Source: a virus. Taken from it: a stretch of DNA of 33,883 bases. The translations under genes and the position numbers were made by a program. Below the pieces are notes generated by a model, which was given only the letters and a program-made list of their open reading frames with translations, was not told the origin of the DNA and ran no database searches. This document shows, piece by piece, positions 644-29,601 of the stretch. The first letter of the stretch is position 1, and every line of letters begins with the position of its first letter. Where the stretch lies: IMG/VR virus record IMGVR_UViG_3300031659_000044, positions 1 through 33,883 of that record, one strand, 5' to 3'.

Positions 644-655
644 GTTTATATATTA
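644..655 (-). promoter_or_regulatory. Candidate late promoter element upstream of the 118-aa gene
   Basis: On the minus strand this reads TAATATATAAAC, 16 nt upstream of the ATG at 628 and overlapping the stop of the tail tube gene. The identical 12-mer lies before the 89-aa gene at 28636, and its AATATATAA core precedes four other genes. It resembles the T4 late promoter TATAAATA. It could instead be an A-rich translation leader. Confidence 0.4.
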
Positions 656-1207
656 GTCTATGTTAACTGTGACATCCAAAATGTTATAAGTAAACTCCAT
701 ATCAAAAGTTTGAAATTCAACAGTGTTACTTGAAAAGTTTAAATCTAAAGCTCCTATATTTGAAATAAACATATTCTTTAATTGGATAGTCACAAAGACA
801 GTTCCATCTGCATCTAGCATTTGAACACCTACACCTTCTGGTAAATACGGATGCTTCCCACTTAACTTATAGTAATAATCAAACATTTCTACAGCCATCC
901 AATAATTAACATAACCATCAAATGCTTGCATGGTAACTGTCATTGATTTATCAAATAATTGCTGAGCAGGTATACTAGATCTAAATGCACGAGTATTACC
1001 AGGATAATCTGTCTGTGTTACTGGATCAAATGATGGCCCAGGCAAGTTAATAGATTGAATTCCATAGTTCCAATAATCAATAGGTTCTTTTATTAACCCA
1101 CCAGGTATTCTTGTTAAAAAAGGTTTATATTTTTTAGCAATAGCATCAGGTATAAAGTTCCTAGGGAAGTCAAATTTAAATTGATTATTTCTTGCACTTA
1201 GTATCAT
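653..1207 (-). CDS. Tail tube protein, T4 gp19-like
   Basis: This 184-aa protein has the length and strand pattern of the T4 gp19 tube-protein family (T4 gp19 is 163 aa). The N-terminal half carries a proline-rich loop and a segment that reads as oligomerisation surface (PAQQLFDKSMTVTMQAFDGY). The C-terminal half shows the family hallmark: a strand ending in DADG, then V-rich and F-rich strands (VTIQLKNMFISNIGALDLNF, later FDMEFTYNILDV). The product would stack as rings inside the sheath to form the inner tube through which DNA passes. The start codon is preceded directly by TTTTATAAACT and no Shine-Dalgarno. The sheath gene normally lies next to the tube gene but is not adjacent here. Confidence 0.8.
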   Translation of the reverse strand: MILSARNNQFKFDFPRNFIPDAIAKKYKPFLTRIPGGLIKEPIDYWNYGIQSINLPGPSFDPVTQTDYPGNTRAFRSSIPAQQLFDKSMTVTMQAFDGYVNYWMAVEMFDYYYKLSGKHPYLPEGVGVQMLDADGTVFVTIQLKNMFISNIGALDLNFSSNTVEFQTFDMEFTYNILDVTVNID

Positions 1208-7575: not shown

Positions 7576-10500
7576 TTATTTTTTAACTATAGTAACACTA
7601 AAACCAAACGATTCAGAGAAACCTGTTCTTTTATTATATATTAGCCTTAAATCAAATGGGTTTGTATTTATGGTTTTTGATGATACACTAGTATTAATTA
7701 TTAGCCCTGCTTTTGTTTTATCTTTATTTGTTAACTCAGCAGTCGTATAATTAGATGGCGTTTTTTCTCTACTTGCTAATGTATAAAATTCTACTTTGTC
7801 TATTTTATAAAGCTTTAAAATATTTTCCTTTATATACTGATTTACATCATCATCTAAAGTTTCTAAATCACCCCAACCATATAGCTTATTAACATACTTT
7901 TCAAACTGAGCTTTAATTGGTATAAACAAATATTCTATTAATCTTTTTTGATTAAACAAGTAAAAATCAATAGTAGGTGATGATGGCACTTTCTTAATAA
8001 TCTTTGTTTGTTTTACACCTTTTGTTAGTATTTGTTTCTTGTTTAAAGTAACTGATGGTGTATCTTTATACATAAATGTACCATCTATTAAATCAGGTTG
8101 TTTTATAGCTGACTTTACAAACGGATCAGGTTTAAATGTTTCTAAAATTATAGTCTCTGGAACTTTTAAGTATTTAGAACCAAAAAATGATTTTCTTTCT
8201 AGCATTGATCTTGTACCAATAACTTTTTCTAGTTGAGACTTATCTATACTTTTGGTAAAATAAGAAGGTTCCCAGTTTGATGAAAATACATAAAAATCTT
8301 TATAGTCAATTCCTATTTCATTAATAAGAGGATATAGGCTAGGGAATGCACTTTCTCTAGATAGTTCTAATACTGTAGATGGATCTTGTTCATTTACTTT
8401 ATGATAAAAGAAATTAGGTATCTGCCCAAACTTAGCATCAGCGCTATTGAATTGAGTATTCTTAAACTTACACAGTTCTAATACTTTTAGTTTATATGCC
8501 TCATCTTCAACACCACCTGTAATATCAAAATCTATATTCTGATAAGGATCTCTAAATGAAAGTAACGGCAATGCATACGGTGAGTAATAACCAGCATGTC
8601 TGGCAATCGGTGTTAAGTTTGGTGTTTTTTGTAAAGATAGATCATAACCTACTACATCAGTTAAATTAAACGCAGTTGGTTTATTCGGATCAGGTAATAC
8701 TCCAACATAAATAGATTTAAGAATATCAGCCTGTGCCCTAAGCTCTACACCAAATGTTTGTGCTAACGTACCATCAGCATTCTTAACTTGTAAACCATCA
8801 CTTGAAATAGTTTCGTATATTATACTAGGATCACCTAAATTAACTGCATTAAAAATTTGACCAAAGCTAATAGCATTTAATCTATTTGTAAATTGAAGAT
8901 ATCCATTATTATCAACCACATAAGATGCATTTGATAATTTAAACTGTGATGGTATTGGGGTTGGTAAGGTTATTGGTGTACCGTCTGACAAAAGACTTGA
9001 GCATATAAATTGACTAGACGATATTACTTTTTGTATACCCCCAATTGTGTAATTTATTCCATTTATAGTAAATTTTATAATACCATAAGAACCATCTTCT
9101 AGTACCCTTAAGTCATTTAAAAAATTAGGCTCAATCCCATTAACATCAGCAATCCCATTTATTGTATATAATTGTGTAGCAGCATTATAGGTAGAATTTT
9201 GGAATGTTAATGCACCACTTAATGGATTATCAGTGTAATCATATGTTCCACCTGTTATAATAGGTTCACAATCTGCATCTACTATAAATGAACTATTTAA
9301 AGAATATAAAGATGTCCTATCTATTATAGAGTCACCAGAATTGTTTAAGCATTCATCTACGTAGTTTACTGAAATTAACATAACCAAAGTTTTCCACTTT
9401 TCATTTTTAATAAACTTAATTTGGTTATCAGGTTTGTCAGGTAAATTAGGTACTAATATTGCAGAAAAACGATAATCATTAAAATTACCATTTCTAACAT
9501 AAGATAATGATCTTGCATTAAAATCAGGTTTTTCTGTACCTATTGCCTTTGGTTTTGCAATAACTCTAACACCTCTTAAAAATGCCTCAGAAAAATTCTT
9601 TTCATCTCCACCACTAAATCTACCATATCTTAATTGCCTATCAATCTCAGTAATGCCTCCCGTTGTAAATTTTTGTACAATAAAATAATCATTAAAATTA
9701 TCTACAGTAACATCTTGAAATGTACTATCAGTTGGTGCAGTGTCAATATAACTCCAAGAACTCTTAATAGCATCCTGTGTAAAGTATTGTGGAAATTCAG
9801 ATAAGTAATACCATTCATGTGTAAAGCCACTAGCTTCTTGTACTATATCCCATTTTGATGGTGCAAAGTTATTTAAACCAAAGGCTAAATTAACATCTAA
9901 TCTATATGGGTGATTTCTTACGTCTTTACCGTCATTAATCCATGCCCACTTATTAATATATGGTGCAATTCTTGATACACTAGCTAAAGAAGTTAAATAA
10001 TTTTCTTCTAACCTAACATATTCACTTGTGATGTACTCATCATCGGGGTTTTGGTCTTCTGCATCATTTAATAAACCAATAAGATTATAAAAACCGCCAT
10101 TGGTATAAAAATCTCTAATTTGTGGATTTGTGCTCACACCTACATAATCAGTTGCAGTACCGGGTGCTGTTTGGTTATATTCAGCATACTCATAATTTAA
10201 TTCACCTTCTTCGCTATATAGTGTACTATAAAAGTCAAAATCAAAATCTCTTACATCAAAAAATGAAAATCTACCAAATGATGGTTTGTAATCTGAATAT
10301 AGTGCAACTTGACCAGACCTTGTAACCATTATTTGATTATCATTACATGTTATTACTACGTACTTATCAATATCAGTGTAACCTATAATTTTATTAAAGC
10401 CATCATATATAGGTTCTTCTGTATAAGGTACCCAATCGCCAATAGTAGCATAGCCACCAGTGGTTTGTATAAAATTGCCTTTTATAAATCTATCTTGGTC

Positions 10501-22632: not shown

Positions 22633-24489
22633 TTAATTGTCTTTTAGTGCATTTATTGTTGAAGTGTTTTGTAACCTACCAGTATTTAAGCCAGCCGAAT
22701 TAGCACCTGTTGCAATAGTAGTACCTCGGTTTCTTTTAACACTGTTGTATTTTTCTTGCTGTATTTTATTATAAAGATTATTTTGAATAGCCTCTTTAAA
22801 GAATACATTTAATGAACTAATTTTATTAGCTTCTGGGATTGGTTCATAATAAGTACCATTCCTATCTTCAAAACCACCTCTTATTATTGCTATATCATTA
22901 TTTTCAATTACAATATCACCAAAACTATCTAATCCTAATTGTGGATCCTCACCTTTCTTTAATACGATTTTTTTATTCTCGATTAATACTCGTTGGTCTG
23001 TAATAGGATCTGTTCCATAAACAGGAATTTCATAATAACCATCTCTAATAGCATTTTCATTTTCTTCTGAAATAAAGAAAACATTTACTGAATCAATGCC
23101 GTCTACATTTTCTATTATTGAAATAATGTCAGATCTTGGAATGTTATCTCTTCTATTTACATTTAGGAAATATTCATCTAAGTTTTTTCTTATTTCAATT
23201 CTTATCTCATCTTTATCATAATTCTCAAACCATCTAACTACAATATTTAAAGCATACTTTTTAATAATAGGATCTACTATTCTAGTTTCGGCAGTGACAA
23301 CTTGCCTACCGCTTTTATTTAATATTTCATAAGTCATTTCCTTTTCAGCTACAGTCATAGTAAATTCAACTTCAGGTATACTAAAATAATCAATATCACT
23401 TGTTAGCTTCTTCTTTATATCTGGGACTAAGAATAAGTAAATAACATTATCATCATCTAAGTATTCATCGTTCTTTGTATTATAAGCATCTATAAAAGAC
23501 CAAAAGTCATACTTACTTAAATAGTAAATATAATTGTTAGGGTTTGCTAATACGAATGAATTACTTGCATACGGTGCAATCAATCTAGTAAAGGCAGGAT
23601 CTTCAGAATCAGAACCAAACATTGGATTTCTTGTAATGTTCATAGAAAGAATTTCATTTAAATCTACTTCTTCACCAGATGCATCTGTGCCTGGGTCTGA
23701 AAATTTCATATCTATTTGTTTACCACCTATATTACCAGCAGCACCTCTAGTTTTTATGTATGTAATTCTAATACGTGAACCTAGTGCTGGGGAAATACCA
23801 AATTGGCTAGTTCCAAAAAACACGCTTAATCCACCAGTTACACTAGTTTTTACCATTGCAGCTTTTTCATTAGCATTCATATCATATATAGAATCAACAA
23901 GTTTCCATAATTCACCGTCTACAAAAACTTCAACTAAATATTGATCAGTAGGATCCTTTGTAATTAAATTATAACTCTGTAATGGTAAACCTGATCCTGT
24001 AAAACTTTGCTCATCTTTTTCTCCTTGAATTATTTCAACATTAACAAAAGACTTTGTGGTTTTATCTAATCTTATAAAGTCACTATTAAATTTTAAAAAA
24101 TAAGTTAAATTATTTTGGCTAATTTCTAAACTAGCACCATTCATAATTTGTACATAATCTCCATTAAGGAGGGTAGACGCACTTGTATTTAATCGCAATC
24201 CAATTATACCTCTTGATGATATACCTCGTGTAGGGTCGTGCCCAGTCAATCTAGATAACCCATAGATTGATTCTATATTTCTAGCTCGAGATATATTAGA
24301 TTCTGTTGCTATAGATTCTATATAAAAGAATATTAATTCTCCTAAATTTGACACTACTGTTAATATTTGACCAAACGGTGATGCAGGTGTAAATGTTTCT
24401 ATTGCCTGGTCATAAGTACGCTGGAGGTATTCAAATGAATCCTCAAATAGCTCTGTTGCTTTTATTCTTGTTTTACTAAAAAATGACAT
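22633..24489 (-). CDS. Baseplate wedge protein, gp6/J-like
   Basis: This 618-aa protein is close to T4 gp6 in length (660 aa). The N-terminus (MSFFSKTRIKATELFEDSFE) leads into helices with the family-like pattern FTPASPFGQILTVVSNLGEL and RARNIESIYGLSRLTGHDPT, seen in baseplate J/gp6 proteins. Residues about 90-240 form a beta-rich domain. Residues about 395-460 carry a mixed alpha/beta segment (YALNIVVRWFENYDKDEIRI) like the conserved core before the C-terminus in gp6. It probably forms the inner ring of the baseplate, dimerising around the hub and joining the gp25- and gp7-like proteins. The stop lies one nucleotide before the next gene. Confidence 0.8.
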   Translation of the reverse strand: MSFFSKTRIKATELFEDSFEYLQRTYDQAIETFTPASPFGQILTVVSNLGELIFFYIESIATESNISRARNIESIYGLSRLTGHDPTRGISSRGIIGLRLNTSASTLLNGDYVQIMNGASLEISQNNLTYFLKFNSDFIRLDKTTKSFVNVEIIQGEKDEQSFTGSGLPLQSYNLITKDPTDQYLVEVFVDGELWKLVDSIYDMNANEKAAMVKTSVTGGLSVFFGTSQFGISPALGSRIRITYIKTRGAAGNIGGKQIDMKFSDPGTDASGEEVDLNEILSMNITRNPMFGSDSEDPAFTRLIAPYASNSFVLANPNNYIYYLSKYDFWSFIDAYNTKNDEYLDDDNVIYLFLVPDIKKKLTSDIDYFSIPEVEFTMTVAEKEMTYEILNKSGRQVVTAETRIVDPIIKKYALNIVVRWFENYDKDEIRIEIRKNLDEYFLNVNRRDNIPRSDIISIIENVDGIDSVNVFFISEENENAIRDGYYEIPVYGTDPITDQRVLIENKKIVLKKGEDPQLGLDSFGDIVIENNDIAIIRGGFEDRNGTYYEPIPEANKISSLNVFFKEAIQNNLYNKIQQEKYNSVKRNRGTTIATGANSAGLNTGRLQNTSTINALKDN

Positions 24490-24502: not shown

Positions 24503-24865
24503 TTAAAAAAGAGCCCCTATAACTCTTTGTTCATTTACAAATATATCAACCAATGCACCATCTCTCTCTGCAGTTGAAAAAAAGCTTACTGAACAATTAA
24601 CTGTAAATCCAGCTATGTTAGGTAAGCAGTATGCGGTAATTTGATTATTAATCTGGTTTTGTATAGTGTTTTCATTTAATACTAATGAAAATATTAAATC
24701 ATTTAAATTTGCACCCATACCTGGTGCACCTAATACATCTCCTTTCCTAGTAAATAAACAATTTTCTATCTTTAAAATTAACTGTGATAAAGTATCGCTT
24801 ACTTCTAAAGTATTATCATTATACTTAGGTGCCTCTATATCTCGGCTATAGATATCTCTTATCAT
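24503..24865 (-). CDS. Baseplate wedge protein, gp25/W-like
   Basis: This 120-aa protein has the length and fold signature of the GPW/gp25 family (T4 gp25 is 132 aa). Family patterns include ILKIENCLFTRKGDVLGAPG, where the usual TxxGE/R turn appears as TRKGD, then MGANLNDLIFSLVLNENT. The product is a lysozyme-like fold that clamps the gp6-like ring and primes sheath assembly. It has no peptidoglycan-cutting active site. Its position immediately before the gp6/J-like gene supports the call. An AATATATAA element lies 20 nt upstream of the ATG. Confidence 0.8.
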   Translation of the reverse strand: MIRDIYSRDIEAPKYNDNTLEVSDTLSQLILKIENCLFTRKGDVLGAPGMGANLNDLIFSLVLNENTIQNQINNQITAYCLPNIAGFTVNCSVSFFSTAERDGALVDIFVNEQRVIGALF

Positions 24866-24926: not shown

Positions 24927-25790
24927 TTATCCGGTGAAAAAGTAATCAACACCTTCATCTCCTTTTATTTCTTCAACCACCCGGTCAACTTCTTCTCTAC
25001 CTTCTGAAGATATCATATCATAATTAATTGTAATATTACCTGGAAGATTAAATGAAAAAGTTCCTAATATTCTAGACAGTTGTATTTTAGCCTGTCCCAT
25101 AACATATCTTTGGAATGCTTCATCTTCAAATAATGCACAGTCTGGTATAGTTGAAAATATTTCAAATATAACAGCTCGCTTTGGTAATTCACCTTGAAAT
25201 CTAAATTTCTTAGTTAACCTATTATAAGTATATGATATTTGTGGTAAAAGAACTTGTCTTGCCTGATCCATAAACATTGAGTTAATTACATAATACATAA
25301 GATTTTCACTACCCATACCTGCACCATATACATCGTCATAAATAAACTTATCAATTGAAAAGTCAACGTCCCCTGCATTAAAGCCATTACTACCAAAACC
25401 ACCATCTTCACCACTAAAGCCACCAATTTCAAATACAGCATTAACTGAATAAACCCTAGATGGCATTTGTACTATTCCTCTAGGATTTTTAATATTATCC
25501 TTGTTAGTTATAGTTTCTCGATTAGCTCCACTACCATAAGGTACACCTTGTTTAAAATCAGCTTTATTAAGAGTTCCTGCAGGTAACGCAATATACATCT
25601 GCTCTACACTATCTTCATATATTTTATAAAAATATTTTTTTGCTCTTTGTATAATATTGTTTATTTCCTTTTTAGGAACCGTGAATGGAATCTGACATGC
25701 GATAGTAAGATCTTCATTAACTAATTTAATTAATGCATCTAAGCATGCTGCTTCATCAGGATCATTACAGTAAGTATTCTTATTAGCCAT
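24927..25790 (-). CDS. Conserved virion structural protein of unknown role
   Basis: This 287-aa protein starts MANKNTYCNDPDEAACLDAL. It carries stretches I associate with a widespread but unnamed virion protein of large contractile phages: IPFTVPKKEINNIIQRAKKY near residue 40, a YDDVYG/GMGSENLMYYVINSMF region around 150-170, YNRLTKKFRFQGELPKRAVI around 200, and FNLPGNITINYDMISSEGRE close to the C-terminus. That link is a recollection and unverified. No membrane segment or enzyme motif is visible. The gene lies between the amidoligase and the gp25-like gene, suggesting a baseplate or tail-completion role. Confidence 0.6.
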   Translation of the reverse strand: MANKNTYCNDPDEAACLDALIKLVNEDLTIACQIPFTVPKKEINNIIQRAKKYFYKIYEDSVEQMYIALPAGTLNKADFKQGVPYGSGANRETITNKDNIKNPRGIVQMPSRVYSVNAVFEIGGFSGEDGGFGSNGFNAGDVDFSIDKFIYDDVYGAGMGSENLMYYVINSMFMDQARQVLLPQISYTYNRLTKKFRFQGELPKRAVIFEIFSTIPDCALFEDEAFQRYVMGQAKIQLSRILGTFSFNLPGNITINYDMISSEGREEVDRVVEEIKGDEGVDYFFTG

Positions 25791-25796
25791 TTTAAT

Positions 25797-27089
25797 TTAT
25801 ATTTTTTCTATTTCTATAATTTCGGTATTTTCAAAATTTGCAAATTCAGTAGCTCTACCCTTTCTAAATATACCACCTTCCATATCTCCACTGAAAACGC
25901 CACGAGGTCCAAAGACATAAGAATCTTTTACTGCTACATGTCTACTTACATAGGAATCTTCTATCTTAGAATCAACAGTATCAGTAGCCCCAAAAAGATT
26001 ACACTCAAACATTGATGAATTAATCAATTCAGTACTGAATATATCACAGCCTATAATATTACCTTGTATTTTACAATCAACAATATCAATTCCATTTATC
26101 TCAAAACATTTCATTAGTTCAGCATTCTTAAGTTGCATTTTACCAGTATCAGCATCATAGTTAATTAACCCCTCTTCTAAACCAGCCTTTGTTAACAACT
26201 CAAATATTTTTGTTCGCATTTTTGGATAAAAGGTTTCGATTATTTGATCATAAGTATTTAGATCTACCATTAATTTAATCTTAGGATACTTTTCTTTAAA
26301 TGCAGAATAAGTTTTATATGATTCAATTACACTTCTGTGTTTTTCTAATAATGAATCTAATATTTTTAAATCATTTTCATTATATACAGGATCTGCTAAA
26401 CTTTCATAAAGAGACAAGACAAAATGCTCAGTCATGTTTAATATTGTGTTATACTTCTTTTCATAATCAGCACCACCTAAATATCTAAACTCAATGTAAT
26501 TCTTTGGTAATTTTGAAAAGTTTACACCATAATATTTTTCAGTAACAAACATATAGTTTTTCCACAACCTTTTTTCAGGAGATGGCTGAGTCATGCCACT
26601 AAGAGGTACAATAAATTTTATAGATTTAGCATAAACAGAATCTCTCCTGTTTGGGAATGCTTCATATACTGCTTCTTCATTAAAGTTAAGTACAAATTTA
26701 CCAATGTCTAAAGATGATACATTAGTATTTGGTCCTAATTTCTTTCCATCAAAAGCAACATTAATATGAATACTACATCGCTCATTAGTGGATCCATTTT
26801 CACGGATCCACTTTAGAGTTTTTGCTATAATAAGTTTTGATTCAACAAACGGCATTGGCCCAGTCACCAATTCAATCATACCAGATCCACCAGAATTGTC
26901 GGGTTCTAATTTAAATATTTCGTCGGTTGGGGTAAATTCACTGTGAGCCTTTTCTTCTACTCTTATTTCTTTGTTAAGAGCTTGTGACATACTTCTTTTA
27001 ACCTCAGTCATCCCTTCATTAGCAAAGAATTCAAATTCTATGCCAATCTTAGATCCGTATATTGCGTTTAGTTGTTCGTTAGTGTACAT
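25797..27089 (-). CDS. Amidoligase of the glutamate-cysteine-ligase-like fold with C-terminal beta-helix-like tail
   Basis: The 430-aa protein has the motif series of the COOH-NH2 (amidoligase_2-type) ligases: GIEFEF (16-21), EPDNSGGSGMIELVTGP (62-78), CSIHINV with H108 (105-111), and YIEFRYLGG with E200 and R202 (198-206). Family enzymes use ATP to join an amine to a carboxylate through an acyl-phosphate. Residues about 320-425 are a pentapeptide-repeat-like run (IDIVDCKIQGNIIGCDIFST), suggesting a right-handed beta-helix that could bind a filament or surface. The substrate is unknown: peptidoglycan stem peptides, a virion protein or a small molecule are all possible. The gene follows the S1-domain gene and has its own AATATATAA element. 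Confidence 0.75.
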   Translation of the reverse strand: MYTNEQLNAIYGSKIGIEFEFFANEGMTEVKRSMSQALNKEIRVEEKAHSEFTPTDEIFKLEPDNSGGSGMIELVTGPMPFVESKLIIAKTLKWIRENGSTNERCSIHINVAFDGKKLGPNTNVSSLDIGKFVLNFNEEAVYEAFPNRRDSVYAKSIKFIVPLSGMTQPSPEKRLWKNYMFVTEKYYGVNFSKLPKNYIEFRYLGGADYEKKYNTILNMTEHFVLSLYESLADPVYNENDLKILDSLLEKHRSVIESYKTYSAFKEKYPKIKLMVDLNTYDQIIETFYPKMRTKIFELLTKAGLEEGLINYDADTGKMQLKNAELMKCFEINGIDIVDCKIQGNIIGCDIFSTELINSSMFECNLFGATDTVDSKIEDSYVSRHVAVKDSYVFGPRGVFSGDMEGGIFRKGRATEFANFENTEIIEIEKI

Positions 27090-27130: not shown

Positions 27131-28273
27131 TTATGCCACGTTCATAGTAATCTTTCTATCACTAACATTTACACTACCGATCTTAATATTAATAATATCA
27201 CCTTTAGAAAGATTTGCTTCTTTAAGTTTAGATTTATGGATTAGGCCACTAATTCCTTTTTCTAATTCAACAAAGGCACCGTACGAAGTAATTTTTGTAA
27301 CTTTACCTTCAGTAATCATCATAGGCTTGTATTTTTCATCTATACCATCCCATAAGTCAATCTTAGGTCCTAGTTGGCTTAATATGATTTTCTTTTCAGA
27401 AATAATTTCTTTGGCCCAGAACTCGATTGAATCTCCAGGTTTTATATTACCTTTATCTAATGATGTAATTGTTTCTTCTGTTAATTCAGCCTTAGGTATT
27501 AGCCCAGTTAAACATTCATCAAATTGAGCAAAGATACCAAATTTAGTAGTTCCTGTTACAAAACCAGTTCTTGATTCTTTTATAGTTTCTTCTAATTGAT
27601 CAAGAGTAACAGGAATCATAGTTCTTAAATACTCTCTGTGAGATACTACAATAGTATCTTTTTCTTTTGAAAATATAATTGGCATTACTATAATCTCTTT
27701 ACCAACTAATGAATTAAAATCATGTAATTTATTTAGCCCACCTAATGAACCTGGCATAAAACATTTAATTCCTGCAATGTCTACCCAATAACCACCATGT
27801 ATAAGTTCTTTTACTATTGCAGTAAAACCAACTGTTTTGTTACCAATAGCATCTTTCATTTCTTTTAATTTAACTTCCATTATTGCATCGCTAATAGAAG
27901 CAGTCACATCATTAGTTTTAGGATTAGTTTTAATTTTTACATCAATCTCCATACCTATTTCTAATTGTTCAACAATATAGTCTGGTTCTTTAACTAATGA
28001 ACAGTATGCAGTATGCTTTGCGCCAATATCAACAAGAGCTCTAGATTTATCAGCTGCCATAAATGAAATTACTCCTCTTGTGGTATAGGCAATACGATCT
28101 TCTGTTAATTGGGTTTTAGTAAGTGTAGCATCAGTAAGACCATACATATCTAATACATCAGCTGCATATGATTCATTACTTAATAATTTGGTACCATGCG
28201 GTACTTGTACTTTTACTACTTTCGTATCCCACGGATCATCGCTTAATTGAATGGTGATTTCTTGTTCTCTCAT
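27131..28273 (-). CDS. Four-S1-domain RNA-binding protein resembling ribosomal protein bS1
   Basis: The protein has 380 aa in four OB/S1 units at about 58-130, 143-213, 232-300 and 314-380. The last is canonical (ITEGKVTKITSYGAFVELEK, GISGLIHKSKL). The second has HGGYWVDIAGIKCFMPGSLG, which matches the GGFTVELNGIRAFLPGSL signature of a bacterial bS1 domain. Cellular bS1 is usually longer, with four to six domains, and recruits mRNA to the 30S subunit. A phage copy could bring A/U-rich, Shine-Dalgarno-less phage messages to host ribosomes, or bind RNA as in replicase or anti-nuclease roles. It lies in the baseplate operon after the spike genes, separated by the window's longest gap. S1 homology is clear; the role is inferred. 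Confidence 0.85.
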   Translation of the reverse strand: MREQEITIQLSDDPWDTKVVKVQVPHGTKLLSNESYAADVLDMYGLTDATLTKTQLTEDRIAYTTRGVISFMAADKSRALVDIGAKHTAYCSLVKEPDYIVEQLEIGMEIDVKIKTNPKTNDVTASISDAIMEVKLKEMKDAIGNKTVGFTAIVKELIHGGYWVDIAGIKCFMPGSLGGLNKLHDFNSLVGKEIIVMPIIFSKEKDTIVVSHREYLRTMIPVTLDQLEETIKESRTGFVTGTTKFGIFAQFDECLTGLIPKAELTEETITSLDKGNIKPGDSIEFWAKEIISEKKIILSQLGPKIDLWDGIDEKYKPMMITEGKVTKITSYGAFVELEKGISGLIHKSKLKEANLSKGDIINIKIGSVNVSDRKITMNVA

Positions 28274-28653: not shown

Positions 28654-28665
28654 GTTTATATATTA
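28654..28665 (-). promoter_or_regulatory. Candidate late promoter element upstream of the 89-aa gene
   Basis: The minus strand reads TAATATATAAAC, identical over 12 bases to the element before the 118-aa gene. It overlaps the stop codon of the spike gene, and its core ends 19 nt before the ATG at 28636. The leader continues TATAAAAATATTTAATT. Confidence 0.4.
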
Positions 28666-29601
28666 ATCAGTTGTATTCTTAGAACTTAAAGATGGCGCAG
28701 CCACTGACATTGGCGGAGATGTTGGCCTACCTGCATTACCTATATGAGTATGTGAATCAAATATACCTGCAAATGTATCACCCTTAATAACAGCCTCTGC
28801 TGCTGCTTCACCTAATTTAATTCTTGGTGAATTAATATGAGTTTCACCAGTTGCAGTAATCTTTGCATTTACACAATTAATATTTGTATCTGCTGTTGCA
28901 TTAACTATAAAATTAGTATCTGTATTTATGACTGTATCATTTCCACTATTAATCGTAAAAACAGCAGAATGAGTAAATGTTATATTTCCATCATTAAGCA
29001 TTACAATAGAGTCACCGTTTGCATTTATTATTTCAACTGAATTATCTGGTTTTATATTAACAGTAGTTGGACCTTCCGTTGTTGTATAATCCATCATTAT
29101 TCCTTTTTCTTCTGTAAAGAAAATTTTAACATGCTCACCTTCTCTATCGTTTGTTACTTCCGAAACACCATCCTGTAACTCACCAGTTAAACCGAATGCA
29201 GTATCATATATTAATACATGTGAATTTTGGTATGATGCTTCTATCTCTCCTTTAGTTTCATCTGAAGGGTAAATGTTTTCATGATAAACTGGCTGATAAA
29301 AATTTCCATTGTCAAAAGTGATTCTAACAATAGATCCTAGTTTAGGTATTTCAAACTTACCACTACCAGTAGCACTCCCACCATACATTAGCTGATGAGG
29401 TCTTGCCCAAGGTAAAGTTGCAGTAGGAATCTTATACGCACTTTCAGGATCTTCAGGATCTACTCTGTCATCCATTTTTCCGTATACTCTTATCTTGCAT
29501 CGACCTTCAAAAATATCATCAACAGTATCTTCTACGATACCAACCCATTGAGTAGTTCTTAAATCATCTGCGTTAAAATTTGCTGGATTTACTTTTCCCA
29601 T
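28663..29601 (-). CDS. Baseplate central spike, gp5/VgrG-like, without lysozyme domain
   Basis: The protein has 312 aa. Residues about 12-110 form an OB-fold domain (QWVGIVEDTVDD...GRCKIRVYGK, then GSIVRITFDNGNFYQPVYHE). Residues about 180-275 are short alternating strands (INANGDSIVMLNDGNITFTH, then AVFTINSGNDTVINTDTN), the pattern of the trimeric beta-helix spike. The end has SHTHIGNAGRPTSPP, with an HTH tri-residue motif that may bind metal near the tip. T4 gp5 (575 aa) has a lysozyme domain inserted between OB fold and spike; none is present here. The ATG overlaps the upstream stop by 1 nt (TAATG), suggesting tight coupling. Confidence 0.8.
   Translation of the reverse strand: MGKVNPANFNADDLRTTQWVGIVEDTVDDIFEGRCKIRVYGKMDDRVDPEDPESAYKIPTATLPWARPHQLMYGGSATGSGKFEIPKLGSIVRITFDNGNFYQPVYHENIYPSDETKGEIEASYQNSHVLIYDTAFGLTGELQDGVSEVTNDREGEHVKIFFTEEKGIMMDYTTTEGPTTVNIKPDNSVEIINANGDSIVMLNDGNITFTHSAVFTINSGNDTVINTDTNFIVNATADTNINCVNAKITATGETHINSPRIKLGEAAAEAVIKGDTFAGIFDSHTHIGNAGRPTSPPMSVAAPSLSSKNTTD

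Follow-up and report, generated by a model that had tools for sequence, protein, structure and literature searches.

What does a predicted amidoligase do in the middle of a phage tail module? Amidoligases of phages are commonly interpreted as enzymes that act on small molecules or on the cell wall, and the gene studied here lies between a homologue of ribosomal protein bS1 and a homologue of the T4 neck protein gp13. We analyzed it in IMG/VR record IMGVR_UViG_3300031659_000044, of which the whole 33,883-nucleotide stretch was used (the window). Genes are referred to by letter: r (bS1), q (the amidoligase/beta-helix gene), p (gp13), o (gp25), n (gp6), and t (gp5). The open reading frame of q has exactly the coordinates given in the initial annotation; it lies on the minus strand, starts with ATG, and is 430 amino acids long. 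Compared with close relatives, pN/pS is about 0.07–0.2 in both of its domains.

Table 1. Features of q and its neighbors in the window, with the basis for each assignment
Feature	Position	Strand	Basis
q, whole gene (amidoligase + beta-helix protein, 430 aa)	25797..27089	-	ORF call; pN/pS
q residues 1-306, predicted glutamine-synthetase-fold amidoligase domain + helical extension	26172..27089	-	model pLDDT 91; GS Z 11.7
q residues 317-430, predicted pentapeptide-type beta-helix + C-terminus	25800..26141	-	model; Pfam; homologue model Z 10.2
q motif 1 GIEFEF, residues 16-21 (E18, E20)	27027..27044	-	E18 210/213, E20 212/213
q motif 2 EPDNSGGSGMIELVTG, residues 62-77 (D64, S66, E73)	26859..26906	-	each 210/213
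q motif 3 SIHIN, residues 106-110 (H108; HxN, not HxH)	26760..26774	-	H 152/213, Q 58/213
q motif KYYGVN, residues 185-190 (K185, N190)	26520..26537	-	210/213; LUZ24/tf equivalent KYSALN
q motif 4 EFRY, residues 200-203 (E200, R202)	26481..26492	-	210/213
q R409, beta-helix cap (GGIFRKG)	25863..25865	-	invariant in 209 active homologues, lost in dead clade
r, bS1 homologue (domains 1-4), 380 aa, 41 nt upstream of q	27131..28273	-	PDB profile E 3.8e-58; NCBIfam S1 models
p, T4 neck protein gp13 homologue, 6 nt downstream of q	24927..25790	-	PDB profile E 6e-8
o, baseplate wedge gp25-like	24503..24865	-	phrog_43 E 1.8e-4; conserved synteny
n, baseplate wedge gp6-like	22633..24489	-	phrog_219 E 9e-25; tblastn to annotated baseplate wedge genes
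t, baseplate hub gp5-like (OB domain), further upstream of q	28663..29601	-	phrog_430 E 1.8e-11, phrog_37871 E 5e-13

Predicted fold and active site of q

The q protein itself gave no Pfam match in a profile search. Amidoligase_2 (PF12224) matched 7 of 21 q homologues at E < 1, and homologue L152, which is 37% identical to q, scored 26.0 bits, above the gathering cut-off of 22. Profile–profile comparisons of q with two-sequence profiles, one of Escherichia coli GlnA/PuuA and one of the LUZ24/tf amidoligases, were not significant; both profiles were too thin, and we therefore used fold and Pfam evidence instead.

Structure prediction had been proposed as a check on the initial annotation, which read q as an amidoligase fused to a pentapeptide-repeat-like beta-helix. 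An AlphaFold2 model built on 52 diverse homologues (mean pLDDT 91.3) has a glutamine synthetase (GS)-fold amidoligase domain followed by a beta-helix of period five. The model superimposes on glutamine synthetases with a Z score of 11.7 (rmsd 3.4 Å over 180 residues), covering residues 1 to 236. Of the predicted viral structures, A0A6J5PQ40 (BFVD) matches best, followed by many phage proteins named "Amidoligase enzyme." The modeled beta-helix spans residues ~317–420, with strands of about three residues at a five-residue period from ~340 to 377 and more strands up to 420. Pentapeptide_4 matched q homologues with a best E of 5.6e-6, and the best score, 26.8 bits, is below the gathering score of 38; the model of a divergent homologue matched the pentapeptide protein NP275-NP276 with a Z score of 10.2 over 131 residues. 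The q homologues that we examined at full length also retain the beta-helix. The proposed domain architecture is supported. We conclude that q has a predicted N-terminal GS-fold amidoligase domain, with conserved residues at the putative metal, ATP, and carboxylate sites, and a predicted C-terminal pentapeptide-type beta-helix.

That catalysis should be expected, as the initial annotation held, is borne out by the alignment: eight predicted catalytic residues (E18, D64, S66, E73, K185, N190, E200, and R202) are each found in 210 of the 213 distinct q homologues, and E20 in 212; some of these homologues are only ~26–30% identical to q. Going by motif order and fold, these residues would be equivalent to the metal and phosphate ligands of GS. 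The further statement that all four amidoligase motifs are intact holds in substance (ExE, DxS...E, and EFR are present), but motif 3 reads HxN rather than HxH. Its partner position is Asn or Ser/Gly in the family, compared with a second His in canonical enzymes such as LUZ24 gp18. H108 itself is His in 152 of the 213 homologues and Gln in 58, and the Gln copies form one group (L158 and L183–L250), in which every other active-site residue is kept. The variation in motif 3 suggests that metal binding may differ from that in the canonical enzymes.

Inheritance of q with neck and baseplate genes

All convincing genes in the window lie on one strand and constitute a tail module. The initial annotation had called this setting unusual for a small-molecule enzyme, and the description is apt: q adjoins the gp13 homologue p and is without the partner genes of small-molecule phage amidoligases. 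A small protein encoded at the module's far end (653–1207, minus strand) matches the tail-tube profile phrog_45 (E 6e-9). A PADLOC search gave no defence-family match.

Relatives of q are encoded in at least 566 IMG/VR stretches, a number that places the architecture far beyond chance. Within the clade of the window, the order of the genes surrounding q hardly varies. To avoid bias, we anchored a scan on gp6, independently of q, and obtained 80 loci. q was found in 75 of them, or in 75 of the 77 that could be evaluated once we had excluded three of the five q-less loci, which end short of the q position. At locus L254 (gp6 at 10001), the bS1 gene is followed directly by gp25 and gp6, and both the amidoligase and the neck gene are missing there. 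Pairwise distances for q track those for the bS1, gp13, gp25, gp6, and gp5 genes (Spearman 0.89–0.95 across 38 non-redundant loci), and each of 15 large records holds exactly one full-length q. Among annotated phage records, matches of nearly full length come only from uncultured huge phages (462–735 kb; 29–40% identical), and where huge phages have a reshuffled gene order q often still lies near tail or neck genes. In a scan of genome contigs, the sole match was a phage-like contig of a metagenome-assembled genome, giving no sign of a cellular source for q. We conclude that q is a core gene of its clade; according to the locus comparisons and models, it is passed on together with neck and baseplate genes as a single core unit.

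By gp6, the closest cultured relatives are Bacteroidota phages (Lak, Tenacibaculum, PAU, Flavobacterium, and Chryseobacterium phages); the host of PAU has since been reassigned to Sphingobacterium (PMC3738902). Phages that carry q are likely to infect Bacteroidota. No q copy was detected in the six of these relatives that we tested (PAU, pT24, PTm1, MaF61, MA9V-1, and Lak-A1), which indicates that contractile-tail assembly as such does not need q. Candidates at the gp25/gp6 position in PAU, PTm1, pT24, and MA9V-1 (for example, PAU gp14) were rejected because they showed no similarity. The gp13-like neck gene of Lak-A1 (MK250016, 342538–343260) reads through eight in-frame TAG codons, which fits the stop-codon recoding of Lak phages.

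Two counterpoints bear on a role in the tail: a place in a tail operon does not always mark a gene as structural, and the link to r could point to translation instead. The main rival to a ligase acting in the tail is that q modifies the translation machinery, for example the adjacent bS1 homologue or its ribosome, much as RimK acts on ribosomal protein S6. We judge this unlikely, and the evidence runs in both directions. r is a full-length homologue of bS1 domains 1–4 immediately upstream of q, and it is present in 70 of the 75 gp6-anchored loci that carry q; the five exceptions are three short, cut contigs and two loci with a dead enzyme (described below). It is also present in all five huge-phage records with q (462–735 kb), even when unlinked, while no S1 domain occurs in five cultured relatives that are complete and lack q. 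The genes of the window are nearly devoid of Shine-Dalgarno motifs, and such motifs are rare in huge phages with rpS1 (PMC7162821). Against a link to translation, r occurs without q in Lak-A1, L254, and the L333 record, its C-terminus is not conserved, and q remains tail-linked even in huge phages that have r elsewhere. The co-occurrence of q and r could be explained by shared descent alone. A joint loss of r and the active site was considered and is weakened: the records with the dead enzyme are incomplete, probably including the largest, from which the otherwise widespread neck gene is missing as well, so that the missing r carries little weight.

Two further observations concern these genes. 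Full-length, unlinked r orthologues are found in huge phages and in Lak-A1. Only 1 of 24 window genes is preceded by a Shine-Dalgarno-like motif, and that gene is q; such a motif precedes q in 72 of 179 related loci.

A clade without the active site and the proposed role of q

Two of the gp6-anchored loci carry a q homologue in which nearly all catalytic residues are replaced (E18S, D64K, S66N, E73I, H108K, K185D, N190D, E200T, and R202K). A dedicated scan recovered five contigs of this clade, 47–100% identical to the query copy; the catalytic set is lost in all five, and in all five the gene lies beside gp6, with q transcribed divergently from gp6 (dead-clade labels L259, L260, and L367–L371). 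Between the two closest distinct copies, which are 97% identical, pS is 0.28 and pN 0.015 (ratio 0.056), indicating strong purifying selection on the protein. The model of the dead-clade protein retains the fold (pLDDT 83, GS Z 11.3). No second q copy was found in the two dead-clade records checked, both of which are incomplete. By its predicted active site, the dead-clade q is a natural pseudoenzyme. Because it is kept beside gp6 under purifying selection, the q protein would have a non-catalytic role at least in this clade.

This natural experiment also helps to sort the conserved residues. We took the positions that are at least 95% conserved in the 209 active homologues and split them according to whether the dead clade keeps them. 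With this split, the predicted catalytic set stands apart from structural residues, and a single residue of the beta-helix joins it: R409, which every active homologue has and the dead clade has lost. The pattern, which represents one evolutionary event, is suggestive of a coupling between R409 and the active site.

Could the enzyme fold be a fossil throughout, with the protein serving only as a tail or neck component or an assembly scaffold? The five-contig pseudoenzyme clade, its position beside gp6, and the strong purifying selection on its closest pair all favor such a role, as does one dead-clade q (L260) that heads a unit of tail-fibre-like ORFs. Extended to the whole family, this explanation leaves unaccounted for the active-site residues that are invariant across ~30% identity outside the dead clade, and we find it quite improbable. 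The initial annotation had held that a purely structural role elsewhere would speak against its proposal of an active enzyme; such a role is indicated in one branch, that of the five contigs, whereas the lineage of the window retains the catalytic residues, and catalysis there looks retained.

Nearly all copies of q keep the active site, yet one branch retains the protein with that site destroyed, so a part in virion assembly is more probable for q than one in ordinary metabolism. The reading that we prefer, tentatively and with somewhat less than even confidence, is that q encodes a late protein of the tail module: its ligase would act on a protein substrate, and it would also have a non-catalytic binding role. 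The ligase would use ATP to convert a carboxylate, either a protein C-terminus or a Glu/Asp side chain, into an acyl phosphate, and the activated carboxylate would then be joined, as the neck or baseplate is assembled, to an amine that either belongs to a protein or is delivered to one. The beta-helix would dock the enzyme onto its protein partner. R409 probably reaches the active site or the substrate, because it vanishes only where the active site vanishes. Binding or scaffolding would not need catalysis and may be all that remains in the pseudoenzyme clade. A narrower version, which we consider rather unlikely, is a dedicated ligase of tail or neck morphogenesis, guided by the beta-helix, that adds an amino acid or an isopeptide link to a virion protein, with the sister pseudoenzyme clade acting as a scaffold only.

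A search of the proteins neighboring q for a conserved C-terminal acceptor residue gave no clear candidate. A link to folate polyglutamate in the T4 baseplate was considered and dropped; a review of the T4 tail does not mention it. If the preferred reading is true, enzymatic modification of a virion protein during tail assembly would add a new step to phage biology, as would modification of a virus-recruited ribosome under the translation alternative. The catalytic set together with R409, always present in active copies and missing from dead ones, offers a precise mutational test.

Relation to known systems

Amidoligase_2 members are already known in phages, and q is a new variant of this known enzyme family in a new setting: an amidoligase as a core gene of a neck and baseplate module, on hundreds of aquatic and huge-phage contigs, mostly from uncultured big phages. 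The family combines a targeting-like domain fused to an amidoligase with a natural, catalytically dead clade. In the open-access literature, we found no paper describing the fusion, its conservation in the tail module, or the pseudoenzyme clade. A 2025 study of large aquatic Bacteroidota phages lists "glutamine synthetase" genes in nine genomes (PMC12619734).

The closest known systems include LUZ24 gp18 and phage tf gp21 (Amidoligase_2, PF12224), which have the motif order ExE / DxS...E / H / RRDS / KY..xN / EFR in common with q; predicted phage enzymes of this family also have a GS-like fold, as q does. A further alternative is that q is an amidoligase of the LUZ24/phiEco32 type, acting on a small molecule or the cell wall, that sits in a late operon by chance. 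The shared enzyme family and motif order speak for this, and a phage amidoligase with a GATase has been suggested to counter superinfection by modifying the cell wall (PMC10580990). However, the LUZ24/tf amidoligase genes lie in early clusters with genes for a COOH.NH2 ligase, a GATase, a RimK-like protein, and a gamma-glutamyl cyclotransferase. q differs in its late tail module with conserved synteny, in the absence of GATase, COOH.NH2-ligase, and RimK partners, in its HxN in place of HxH, in its pseudoenzyme clade, and in its C-terminal beta-helix, which is not seen in the LUZ24/tf-type enzymes examined. GATase_6 (glutamine amidotransferase) was absent from all 16 large q records searched, and control genomes were positive. 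We think a chance placement of such an enzyme very doubtful.

The glutamine synthetases (GlnA and PuuA) resemble q in the fold of the catalytic domain, with Z scores of up to 11.7, at ~10% identity and with only the GS catalytic domain matched. A parallel in genomic position is the "Amidoligase enzyme" of Atu_ph07 (AUZ94978.1), whose catalytic domain is 26.5% identical to q and whose gene adjoins the portal gene in a structural region. Unlike q, it has no beta-helix, is 500 aa long with an insertion, has other neighbors, and is missed by the q-family profile. Pentapeptide-repeat proteins (NP275-NP276, AlbG, MfpA, and Qnr) share the beta-helix of five-residue period, whereas in q the repeats are degenerate, score below the Pfam gathering score, and are fused to an enzyme. 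A full-length counterpart is A0A6J5PQ40, an uncharacterized protein of an uncultured Caudovirales phage (BFVD), whose predicted structure matches that of q over its full length (TM 0.90, 24% identity) and which is apparently a database member of the q architecture.
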